From a virus, in the IMG/VR virus record IMGVR_UViG_3300030099_003026, positions 1-36,715 of that record: DNA of 36,715 bases, one strand, 5' to 3'. A program made the position numbers and the translations under genes. Shown here piece after piece: positions 29,626 to 32,327 of this stretch. How positions within the stretch are numbered: position 1 is the stretch's first letter; every line of letters starts with the position of its first letter. A model generated the notes under the pieces. It was given only the letters and a program-made list of their open reading frames with translations. It was not told the origin of the DNA and made no database searches.

Positions 29626-30056
29626 AAATATTCCGATTCGTTTTTAAGTGCGTCCATCACATCTTCGTGCAGCATTTTTAAATCAATTAAAATGGACGTT
29701 GTGTAAGGAAAATTTGTGCTGGTGTGCCACGATACTTTTACAGCCAAATCTGACGTAACATAGAGCGACATATATCGTGATGAGCTTTTCGTTTCATCTA
29801 AATACCTCTTAATGCCAATGTTCAATAACTCTGCTTTGAATGATAGCTTTTTTGGAGCTACGCCAAGCCTTTGCAAGTTCCACGCAAGTTTAGTCATCAT
29901 AAGGTTTGCAATGCTGTAGCGTCTGGTCGTGCCGGTGCCGGGTCGCTGGTCGTGATGATCGACGATCTGCAAATCGGCAAACGCGGTAAGTCTGCGTACG
30001 GGTATGCTAAACATGTGTGAAACTTGTGCCGTGCCGAGTATGGGTAGGTTGTGCAT
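29610..30056 (-). CDS. MerR-like HTH protein, 148 aa
   Basis: ATG 30056 is preceded by GGAG with 8-base spacing. The N-terminus fits a MerR-type winged helix (AQVSHMFSIPVRRLTAFADL, then GTTRRYSIANLMMTKLAW, about 10-60). The rest is beta/helical with a VSWHTSTNFPYTTSILID block and ends in a charged helix. A signal-binding domain is possible. It is likely a regulator of the early block. Its end overlaps the 79-aa gene by 16 bases, and its start overlaps the methyltransferase stop. Confidence 0.6.
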   Translation of the reverse strand: MHNLPILGTAQVSHMFSIPVRRLTAFADLQIVDHHDQRPGTGTTRRYSIANLMMTKLAWNLQRLGVAPKKLSFKAELLNIGIKRYLDETKSSSRYMSLYVTSDLAVKVSWHTSTNFPYTTSILIDLKMLHEDVMDALKNESEYLCQMK

Positions 30057-31141
30057 TATTCTGTCTCCATGTAGGATTCTATAAACGCTTGCGCTTGGGG
30101 CGCGACGATGGCGTTGCCGTAACCGCGGAGGCGCACCATTCGGGCGGAAGACCCATCAACCAACGGGGCAAGGCCGGGTTCAGTTGGCCTCCATTTTTGA
30201 TCTCTGCACCAGATCCAATCTGCATTTCGCCAGTAGCCGTTAATCGGGCCGGCCCCGTGAGTGTCGCTGATGTTGCCAGTGGATTTCCGGCATTTGCCCC
30301 TCGCGGATTGTCCGGATTTTTGGATGGCCCTCCGGTTGAGGCGGTTGGACTGCTCCACCCCGTCAGCTGGACTGTTGTGCCAAGTTTCATCAGCCCTCCG
30401 CTTTTGCCTTCTTTCTTGCGTCTCTGTTTCCGTTTTTCTACTGTCTCCAATTTCTCGCAGGTTTCGCTTGCATTGCACGTTGGCCACCCCGTCAGTTGGC
30501 TCTGTGTCACCAGTGTCATTCCGAACTTCGTACCGGTTGTTTTGCTGATCCGTTGTGCGTTGCCGTTTTTGTCCATCGTGATTGCATGTGGCCCTCTGTT
30601 GCCGTCCATTGCTGTTGGGCTGTTCCACGTTGTCGGCGAACCAGTAGAGTCTTTGCCGGAGGTGCGGTGCGCCGACGCTACAAGCTGGAAAAACGACCAA
30701 CCCTGCGGCGTACTTTTCTCGCGCAAGGTCTGCTTGTAGAGCGTCGAACCAAGCCTGACCAGCTTTTTGTGCAACCTGCTCACCAAATATTGTTGGCGGT
30801 CTTTTGCTCTCTGGTAGACCGGCGATGACGCGAAACATTTCCGGCCAGAGGTGTCGCTTGTCTTTTGTTCCATCTTTTTTTCCGGCTGATGAGAATGGCT
30901 GGCATGGACAACTTCCGGTGAGGACGGGTCTATCGTCCGGCCATCCGGCTTGTCGGAGTGCGTAGCTCCAGACCCCGATGCCGGCGAAGAGGTGAATTTG
31001 TTTATATTGAACAAGGTCATTTGATCTAACATCTCTAATGTCTCTCTCGTCTACGTCACCCGGTGCGATTAGATCCTGTTTAATCAGTTCGCGTAACCAG
31101 GCACAAGTTTGTTTGTCGTTTTCGTTATAGTAGGCCGTCAT
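30056..31141 (-). CDS. dcm-like: DNA C5-cytosine methyltransferase
   Basis: The 361-aa protein carries the C5-methyltransferase motifs: I as LFAGIG (51-56), IV with the catalytic Cys in GSCPCQPFSSAG (C80), VI as GEQV (E121), VIII as GAPHLRQRLYW (157-167), and the late motifs RGYGNAIVAPQA near residue 345. It transfers a methyl from SAM to cytosine in a specific site, probably to shield phage DNA from host restriction. Between about 180 and 300 the sequence is a charged, low-complexity stretch with no hydrophobic core, unusual for the target-recognition domain. That stretch lies where the second frame (30079-31032) codes for something else. Confidence 0.9.
   Translation of the reverse strand: MTAYYNENDKQTCAWLRELIKQDLIAPGDVDERDIRDVRSNDLVQYKQIHLFAGIGVWSYALRQAGWPDDRPVLTGSCPCQPFSSAGKKDGTKDKRHLWPEMFRVIAGLPESKRPPTIFGEQVAQKAGQAWFDALQADLAREKYAAGLVVFPACSVGAPHLRQRLYWFADNVEQPNSNGRQQRATCNHDGQKRQRTTDQQNNRYEVRNDTGDTEPTDGVANVQCKRNLREIGDSRKTETETQERRQKRRADETWHNSPADGVEQSNRLNRRAIQKSGQSARGKCRKSTGNISDTHGAGPINGYWRNADWIWCRDQKWRPTEPGLAPLVDGSSARMVRLRGYGNAIVAPQAQAFIESYMETE
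30079..31032 (-). CDS. Second long gene overlapping the methyltransferase
   Basis: A 317-codon frame runs entirely inside the methyltransferase gene on the same strand, one frame over. Its product has features of a real protein. The N-terminal part contains SGSGATHSDKPDGRTIDPS and STLYKQTLREKSTPQGW, then ASAHRTSGKDST. A repeated motif (TWNSPTAMDG, LTGWPTCNAS, LTGWSSPTAS) follows, and the C-terminus ends PARLTATGEMQIGSGAEIKN, GGQLNPALPRWLMGLPPEW. From memory, these blocks belong to a phage/prophage protein family of unknown function, often next to or over C5-methyltransferase genes. No catalytic residues are obvious. I consider it real, with dual coding of about 950 bases. Confidence 0.65.
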   Translation of the reverse strand: MLDQMTLFNINKFTSSPASGSGATHSDKPDGRTIDPSSPEVVHASHSHQPEKKMEQKTSDTSGRKCFASSPVYQRAKDRQQYLVSRLHKKLVRLGSTLYKQTLREKSTPQGWSFFQLVASAHRTSGKDSTGSPTTWNSPTAMDGNRGPHAITMDKNGNAQRISKTTGTKFGMTLVTQSQLTGWPTCNASETCEKLETVEKRKQRRKKEGKSGGLMKLGTTVQLTGWSSPTASTGGPSKNPDNPRGANAGNPLATSATLTGPARLTATGEMQIGSGAEIKNGGQLNPALPRWLMGLPPEWCASAVTATPSSRPKRKRL

Positions 31142-31142
31142 A

Positions 31143-31568
31143 TTATTGGCTGTTCATAACTTTGGTTGCGTTTATACCTCTGGTAGAGCGCAATGGCTCC
31201 AACGAGGATAACCAGTGCCGGTAGACATCTCTTGACATATCGACCCATTCGGAGTGCGGACTTGTTTGATGGCATACGCTGATCTCTTCTGAGTTAAATG
31301 TTGTTAGAACGATGTAGAACGGAACGCCTAATGCCTCGGCTACATGGCGTAGTTTCTTGCCACTGAACTGATACCAGAGACGATGAGCGACCTTGTCTTT
31401 TACCTTCAGATTGATGTGCCGATGAGTGGTCAACTCAAGCAGGGCAACAGGGTAGTCTCCGCGCCATTCGATCTGGTCTACATCATGCACACCCGATACG
31501 TTCCACTGATAGCGCCATGACTTGTACGGAGCAGCTTTATCTGCCCAACCATACTTGCGCGGTTTCAT
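31143..31568 (-). CDS. Possible PD-(D/E)XK nuclease-fold protein
   Basis: The 141-aa protein starts at ATG 31568 with GGTGAG just upstream. It has DVDQIEWRGDYPVALLELTT (28-48) followed by a helix with the turn RHVAEALGVPFYIVLTTFN. An Asp, a beta strand with ELT and a late Gln-containing strand are typical of restriction-endonuclease-like folds. Related phage proteins with a D..D.IE..PVA..E pattern come to mind. Next to the methyltransferase a restriction-like or modification-linked role is thinkable, but catalytic Lys is not clearly placed. The stop lies just before the methyltransferase start. Confidence 0.45.
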   Translation of the reverse strand: MKPRKYGWADKAAPYKSWRYQWNVSGVHDVDQIEWRGDYPVALLELTTHRHINLKVKDKVAHRLWYQFSGKKLRHVAEALGVPFYIVLTTFNSEEISVCHQTSPHSEWVDMSRDVYRHWLSSLEPLRSTRGINATKVMNSQ

Positions 31569-32302
31569 AGCTCACCCGTTAGATCAGTCGCCCCTGCACG
31601 GACAACAATTCGTTTGCGGTTATGACCATCTCGTCCGTCTGCCACCCAGACCACAGTTTCGTTTCGTGGCTGTAACTGAGGCCCACTTCTTTCAGCCGTC
31701 GATAGACCGGAGTCGATAGCTCCAGTGGTTCCGGCCCTTTGGTCTGATATCGCACTGCCGGTTGCGGTCTGTTTTCCATCAGCCACTGGTGCTGTATCGT
31801 CTGGCGTTTCAGCCACGTCACCTCTTCTTCGATCAGTTCGATAATCGCTTTCATCAGCAAAGGTGAACTCAGCGTCGCCCCATCCAGCAATTCGGAAAGT
31901 ATTTCTAATGCGAGCCTGATAGTCTCGTTGTGTACGTTTTGCGCTGGCGGTATCGTGCGCGATTTTTCTTGGATCATTTTTTGTAAAGTAAGTTGAGCGT
32001 GTTGCGTGAGCGTTAATACGGGCCTGGGTGTTTCGGTGTCTGGTTCGAGCATTTTCGATCATCTGTTTAAGGGCTTTGCCGGTGAGATTTAAGGTGTGAC
32101 CTTCAAGCGAAAAAACGGTAAACACGCCCGGTTTACGTGGCGGTAATTCTGCGGTGAGTGCGCGTTTGTTTTGCTCAAGCGCAGCCCATGTATAGCCGTA
32201 TTCCAGGTCTTTACCTATTGCCATTTTTGCACCGCTGGATAGCGGAAACTTTTTGAGAACGTGTCTGGCTCGTTCCAGTGTTGTTGCTGTATACTCTTCC
32301 AT
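31565..32302 (-). CDS. Unknown protein, second half overlapped by another frame
   Basis: The ATG at 32302 (MEEYTATTLERARH) is preceded by GGAGG with 5-base spacing. The first 83 residues look like real protein (LERARHVLKKFPLSSGAKMA, then LTAELPPRKPGVFTVFSLEG). From about residue 84 on the sequence turns into Arg/Thr/Asp-rich low-complexity stretches, while another frame (31579-32052) reads as a sound protein. Either the reading frame shifts near 32050 or two genes overlap. The stop overlaps the next gene start by ATGA. Function unknown. Confidence 0.45.
   Translation of the reverse strand: MEEYTATTLERARHVLKKFPLSSGAKMAIGKDLEYGYTWAALEQNKRALTAELPPRKPGVFTVFSLEGHTLNLTGKALKQMIENARTRHRNTQARINAHATRSTYFTKNDPRKIAHDTASAKRTQRDYQARIRNTFRIAGWGDAEFTFADESDYRTDRRRGDVAETPDDTAPVADGKQTATGSAISDQRAGTTGAIDSGLSTAERSGPQLQPRNETVVWVADGRDGHNRKRIVVRAGATDLTGEL
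31579..32052 (-). CDS. 157-aa protein in the overlapping frame
   Basis: This frame lies within 31565-32302, one frame over. It begins MLEPDTETPRPVLTLTQHAQ and holds amphipathic helices (NETIRLALEILSELLDGATL, then PLLMKAIIELIEEEVTWLKR) and a mixed C-terminal domain with a PVYRRLKEVGLSYSHETKLW block. Composition and hydrophobic periodicity are those of a folded protein, in contrast to the other frame over the same bases. It has no clear ribosome site, so it may be reached by a +1 frameshift from the 32302 gene. Function unknown; a replication or recombination helper is a guess from context. Confidence 0.5.
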   Translation of the reverse strand: MLEPDTETPRPVLTLTQHAQLTLQKMIQEKSRTIPPAQNVHNETIRLALEILSELLDGATLSSPLLMKAIIELIEEEVTWLKRQTIQHQWLMENRPQPAVRYQTKGPEPLELSTPVYRRLKEVGLSYSHETKLWSGWQTDEMVITANELLSVQGRLI

Positions 32303-32327
32303 TACTACCTCCATTTTTGTATTAGAC

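Follow-up and report, generated by a model that had tools for sequence, protein, structure and literature searches.

A phage C5-cytosine methyltransferase gene with a second, modular gene nested in its +1 frame, proposed to encode the motif-IX and target-recognition subunit

One gene of the viral DNA analysed here (the window, 36,715 nucleotides in all) holds a second gene in an overlapping frame of the same strand, and both frames encode selected proteins. Frame A (30056–31141, minus strand) encodes a C5-cytosine DNA methyltransferase catalytic subunit of 361 residues with motifs I–VIII and X, as identified by PF00145 (2.4e-17), phrog_363 (2.3e-73) and an AF2 model with the M.HhaI fold. Frame B (30079–31032, minus strand), of 317 residues, lies wholly within A and is read in A+1; we propose it as a target-recognition and motif-IX subunit. 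A first-pass annotation had reported a 317-codon gene nested in another frame of a C5-methyltransferase gene, and on rechecking its coordinates and lengths were exact. Sequence searches with B matched phrog_31772 (3.8e-22) and phrog_1008 (8.2e-22) and returned nothing significant from Pfam, NCBIfam, PADLOC or PDB; B belongs to these PHROG families by sequence, but their label, ‘DNA methyltransferase’, names the host gene, B itself being devoid of methyltransferase catalytic motifs. No Rfam match was found between 29500 and 32700.

The nesting is constant. Homologues of B were found in 195 phage records by tblastn, in viral loci (32 in one search and 80 in another, the sets overlapping) and in 80 bacterial genome loci; at every one of the 196 loci found via B, drawn from viral contigs, bacterial genomes and phages, it overlaps A and is read in A+1. 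As a control for picking loci by B, 80 were picked by A alone, some contigs being common to both sets, and all 80 carry an intact B, open in A+1. Non-exhaustive searches of viral, genome, phage and plasmid collections yielded no stand-alone B. Because it is nested in a C5-methyltransferase gene at every locus that could be placed, B is not a free-standing family, and we rejected that candidate. The first-pass annotation had supposed a conserved overprinted pair recurring across phages, with B possibly a fixed partner of the methyltransferase, and the unchanging +1 arrangement in both sets of loci bears this out; its concern that homologues of the second frame might be absent is answered by the phage, viral and bacterial copies. 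Its mention of a separate phage protein family is right insofar as the family exists and recurs, but not as to its being separate.

To ask how far B follows from A, we used a control that keeps the residues and codon composition of A and shuffles its synonymous codons. Over 189 loci such shuffles put a mean of 3.3 stops into each B, and the B HMM score, 364 bits for the real sequences, falls to 125. For the window the mean was 3.6 stops, with B open in 0.5% of 20,000 trials, which disposes of the first-pass worry that its openness might be no longer than chance; under phage structural-gene codon usage the mean rose to 10.4 stops and none of 20,000 trials was open. The third frame holds 17 stops and is never open.

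Rates of change by codon position tell the two frames apart. With B in A+1, the third codon position of A is the second of B, and the first of A is the third of B. Among 38 close pairs, the ratio of changes at the third and first positions of A (A3/A1) is 5.27 upstream of B, where a single frame is read, 3.53 over B residues 1–70, close to single-frame behaviour, 1.65 over residues 70–130, 0.59 over the B modules described below and 1.10 over its C-terminal block, a gradient indicating that A governs the catalytic part and B the middle. The first-pass annotation had suggested looking for constraint in each frame, and it is found: an A signal upstream and a B signal in the middle. Between the window and its relative L001, the module region differs by 11 changes at the third position of B and by 2 at each of the others. 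Likewise, in 16 distinct sequences of the module type ‘..KGGYxGGRxRNGKLSTDRLDV’, the B residues are kept while the A reading drifts; the entropy of this type by B codon position (0.56, 0.25 and 1.24 bits at positions 1, 2 and 3) points to constraint on the protein rather than on the DNA. That B might be a shadow, its openness and similarity following from the residues of A and from base composition, gains something from the one-third of its score that shuffled controls retain (125 of 364 bits); two-thirds of the score are then left unaccounted for, as are the rarity of open shuffles for the window and the never-open third frame, the third-position wobble of B in the modules and the selection on its start site. 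The codon shuffles, the stops in the third frame and the rates by codon position rule out a chance reading frame or compositional shadow; the probability of such a shadow is negligible, and the overprinted B is almost certainly a real, selected protein.

What A contains, and what it lacks, suggests a role for this protein. Its motif I (HLFAGIGVWSYAL; 30956–30994), motif VIII (HLRQRLYWFA; 30635–30664) and motif X (GYGNAIV; 30104–30124), all on the minus strand like the features that follow, are evident in alignment A2; motif IV with the catalytic Cys (PCQPFS; 30890–30907) is invariant there, and both it and motif VI, present as the variant GEQV at the ENV position with an invariant G-E-Q (30773–30784), align to M.HhaI. 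The features expected of PF00145, namely FAGIG, PCQ, the motif VI glutamate, motif VIII and GNA, are invariant columns of alignments A2, A4 and A6. Residues 1–180 gave a confident AF2 model whose best PDB fold match is M.HhaI (9.5e-8). Residues 181–297 (30251–30601), the variable region, have no conserved residues and are predicted to be disordered (AF2 pLDDT mostly 31–49); as the A3/A1 values show, the DNA of this region evolves as B coding sequence. Residues 326–342 are again of low AF2 confidence and are followed by a confident C-terminal helix. Motif IX is absent from A in alignment A2, and neither alignment nor AF2 model revealed a folded target-recognition domain. The first-pass description of A as having all catalytic motifs therefore holds for motifs I–VIII and X but not for motif IX, which A lacks and whose equivalent block is in B.

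That block (GQLNPALPRWLMGLPPEW; 30136–30189) lies near the C-terminus of B and was recognised from B proteins and single-chain enzymes together. Of 289 B proteins, 269 have it in the form LNPxxxRWLMGLPPEW. Single-chain actinophage methyltransferases, those of Gordonia phages JKSyngboy (L286) and Rabbitrun (L294) and Mycobacterium phage Magnar (L291), carry it in frame with their catalytic motifs, directly before motif X (E 4e-7 to 1e-4). It occurs in a nested +1 frame in Paenibacillus phage DevRi (L287) and podovirus ctgrD200 (L278), in Porphyromonas phage018a (L293; E 0.003) and, as a weak match, in Stenotrophomonas phage S72 (L292; E 0.02). As the block occupies the place of motif IX in the single-chain enzymes, A lacks what B has: by way of these phage enzymes, the missing motif IX of A finds an apparent counterpart in B. 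A profile of the block searched against PDB found no methyltransferase. In our tree, the two single-chain rows tested fall inside a clade that also has nested members, with long branches on which we claim no older state.

The rest of B is less well modelled. Residues 1–70 (30823–31032), over motifs I–IV of A, form a weakly constrained N-terminus by A3/A1 and are of low confidence (AF2 pLDDT about 50), whereas residues 71–121 (30670–30822), over motifs VI–VIII, form a confident helix and beta hairpin (H71–94, E99–107, E113–121; pLDDT about 90); the remainder is of low confidence in isolation. The model of B alone has a pLDDT of 62, and this weak model gave no usable match in a PDB fold search.

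The division of motifs between A and B has a precedent in M.EcoHK31I, a methyltransferase of YGGCCR for which both chains are needed for activity. Lee, Kam and Shaw reportedly described in 1995 how the gene for its small chain lies inside that for the large chain in another frame, as B lies inside A. According to the published description, the large chain of that two-polypeptide enzyme has motifs I–VIII and X and the smaller alone has motif IX (PMC3404938); compared on this description, A corresponds to the large chain and B, with its motif-IX-like block, to the small one. M.AquI (alpha/beta) is likewise a naturally split C5-methyltransferase with motif IX in its second chain (PMC3404938), but its split is sequential, with motifs IX and X and half of the variable region in beta; here A retains motif X, and B is encoded inside it in a different frame. 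That a C5-methyltransferase can consist of two chains is already published, and B is probably the motif-IX and recognition partner of A in such an enzyme, a reading that comes from sequence comparison. The first-pass annotation had called the purpose of the pair unknown, which we judge too cautious given this precedent (M.EcoHK31I; PMC3404938) and the target-recognition and motif-IX role proposed here. Next to A and B we recognised no gene for a restriction enzyme, a difference from M.EcoHK31I; when a restriction-modification locus like that of M.EcoHK31I was sought in plasmids and in E. coli genomes, the regions inspected proved to be phage-like or prophage remnants, and the collections searched yielded no sequence identified as M.EcoHK31I.

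B could instead be a separate effector riding on the methyltransferase gene, such as a restriction-enzyme inhibitor or an anti-restriction protein that binds DNA; there are many stand-alone anti-restriction proteins in phages, and B has no PDB relative. Yet among the loci examined B is never seen apart from A, their frame relation is unchanged across large sequence distances, and the C-terminal block of B is the very part that A is missing and that single-chain methyltransferases carry in frame. We therefore consider an independent effector very unlikely.

Between its hairpin and its C-terminal block, B is built of tandem W-P-T-P-x-A modules with a median length of 35 residues (IQR 32–39), mostly one to five and usually two to five per protein. 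The window has three: module 1 (WNSPTAMDGNRG...QLTG; 30487–30627), module 2 (WPTCNASETCEK...QLTG; 30358–30486) and module 3 (WSSPTASTGGPSKNP...; 30247–30357), as delimited by module segmentation. The repeated W-P/S-T/S-x-A blocks and the LNPALPRWLMGLPPEW end picked out in the first-pass annotation are both present in B and kept in its relatives. Module types recur in varying order in unrelated phages: taking pairs with at least 75% identity over at least 28 residues, we found 191 module pairs, many of them non-independent, in B proteins whose backbones share less than 50% identity; in 133 of the 191 the two modules stand at different ordinal positions. In the window and the three relatives nearest to it, 80–92% identical in B, four different arrays are seen: WNSPT/WPTCN/WSSPT in the window, WNSPT/WKTPV/WPTCN in L001, WNSPT/WPTCN/WPTAT in L003 and WNSPT/WKTPV/WPTCN/WPTTL/WATPN in L004; module 3 of the window is absent from all three relatives, which have other modules instead. 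B is thus modular, and between nearest relatives entire modules have been gained, lost or swapped.

Such whole-module turnover with both frames kept open is the trace expected from an exchange of recognition units, and it is reasonably likely that each module is an individual target-recognition unit. Multispecific Bacillus phage methyltransferases are single chains read in one frame. Those of SPR, SPbeta, phi3T, rho11 and H2 carry tandem target-recognition domains and recognise several sequences (PMC8936443). By analogy, the tandem, exchangeable modules of B may recognise DNA too, but B, which bears the array, is a protein distinct from the catalytic chain and encoded in the overlapping frame.

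We place recognition in B, as an inferred step, because the variable region of A is unconserved, predicted disordered and evolving as B. A narrower role would make B a motif-IX and assembly subunit only, its modules spacers or structural repeats, with specificity residing in the variable region of A. M.EcoHK31I is described in this way, its recognition domain being predicted in the larger subunit (PMC3404938), and a conserved tail of A before motif X (DADWLxCRDGKWRPVEPG) could touch DNA. That variable region, however, has no conserved residues and an A3/A1 of 0.59 besides its predicted disorder, and it is in B, not in A, that module types are kept and exchanged; an assembly-only B is therefore unlikely. 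With recognition in B, the pair would differ from M.EcoHK31I in having its apparent recognition function as a multi-module array on the nested chain.

The mechanism we propose is that a C5-cytosine methyltransferase of two polypeptides arises from one phage gene. Frame A would supply the catalytic chain, with SAM binding, the catalytic Cys and motifs I–VIII and X, but neither a folded target-recognition domain nor motif IX; B, initiated at its own ATG inside A, would supply the helix-hairpin core, the tandem modules of about 35 residues and the motif-IX-like C-terminal block. The two chains would assemble, with B standing in for the small domain that recognises DNA, and the modules would serve as target-recognition units, the array setting one or more methylated sequences; whole modules would be gained, lost and exchanged between phages, and the enzyme would methylate phage DNA, protecting it from host restriction. 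We infer the binding of A to B, the contact of B with DNA, the setting of specificity by modules and the anti-restriction purpose. Slightly better than even, in our estimate, are the chances of the broadest version of this proposal, an old and large group of C5-methyltransferases of phages and prophages in which the DNA-sequence reader is overprinted in +1 as an array of modules of about 35 residues, dual-frame cassette swaps reprogramme methylation and the variable region of A is a mere echo.

To our knowledge, long, fully nested same-strand pairs with both frames selected are rare outside small viruses. The literature searched, which included few subscription journals, gave no description of a nested phage methyltransferase pair, only papers that cite M.EcoHK31I as a two-polypeptide enzyme, and we did not find the nested modular reader or its breadth described there. 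The same DNA serves two genes, with the catalytic ends under A and the proposed recognition middle under B. If B is the recognition subunit, an annotated methyltransferase expressed alone would be inactive or unspecific, it would not be possible to assign methylome motifs from A, and every module type would be a testable, swappable DNA-recognition part.

How B is expressed is suggested by its start. The ATG (31030–31032) was examined in a start-codon test and is read over Asp-Val codons of A (G|ATG|T), at a conserved Asp/Glu-Val; a weak, purine-rich SD-like stretch (gagagag; 31042–31048) lies upstream, where many relatives have a clear GGAG. Of 275 loci, 189 have an ATG at this site, where 92 (maximum 112) would be expected from 200 draws that keep the residues of A, and 141 have SD-like motifs, where 53 (maximum 74) would be expected. 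Being above expectation, the start codon and SD-like motifs favour internal initiation. The excess also weighs against a +1 ribosomal shift from A into B, by which B would not be translated separately and the front of A would be fused to the recognition part of B. The invariable +1 relation and the weak constraint on the first 70 or so residues of B would suit such a fusion; entry at the B core (residues 71–121), over motifs VI–VIII of A, would however lose motif VIII, and motif X of A, close to the end of the overlap, is still conserved. We hold this fusion to be highly improbable and internal initiation to be the favoured route.

Hundreds of phage and prophage loci carry the nested pair, which annotations mostly give as one gene and sometimes in the wrong frame. 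Gene 58 of coliphage N15 (L280) is one such pair and would make a convenient laboratory model. The close group comprises phages and genome assemblies of Pseudomonadota, and the tree also places in it assemblies labelled Thermodesulfobacteriota, Planctomycetota and Campylobacterota; Paenibacillus and Porphyromonas phages have nested pairs that are more distant. As a rule A alone is annotated, sometimes both frames (L035; K1ind3 ORF29/30, L279; DEVRI_57, ‘Not called by any program’, L287) and sometimes B alone (L038, L293). In the Porphyromonas phage record (L293; 976–1944 and 1175–1789), the nested B frame is annotated as a hypothetical protein and the overlapping methyltransferase frame has no annotation. 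Two phage records (L036, 2056–2439; L038, 1501–2454) give the product name ‘DNA methyltransferase’ to the B frame and not to A, and in L036 a hypothetical gene is called on the opposite strand across the true A frame. Among bacterial genome copies, L136 and L139 have an in-frame stop in A with B open end to end. Reciprocal frameshifts of both frames in the contigs L028 and L031 are probably assembly errors or decay, and the same may be true of an apparent indel in Krischvirus LF73P4 (L285, 1486–2341), by which the front of B runs on into the end of A; the copy in the related Delraymugoa (L281) differs in this.

Just upstream of A lies a second fully nested same-strand pair (31565–32314 and 31579–32052, minus strand; 249 and 157 residues, the inner frame in +1). 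Both of its frames are open in L001, L003, L004 and L197, at 71–93% identity, and where the two overlap it is the inner frame that shows a third-position signal, with 21, 27 and 49 differences at positions 1, 2 and 3 relative to L197. Between this pair and A, a gene on the same strand (31143–31568) encodes a protein of 141 residues (‘DQIEWRGDYPVALLELTTHR...’) with no family match, whose sequence is reminiscent of a possible small nuclease core of the PD-(D/E)XK type. Paracoccus phage KLEP18-1 (L282) has a VRR-NUC gene at the matching site before its methyltransferase.
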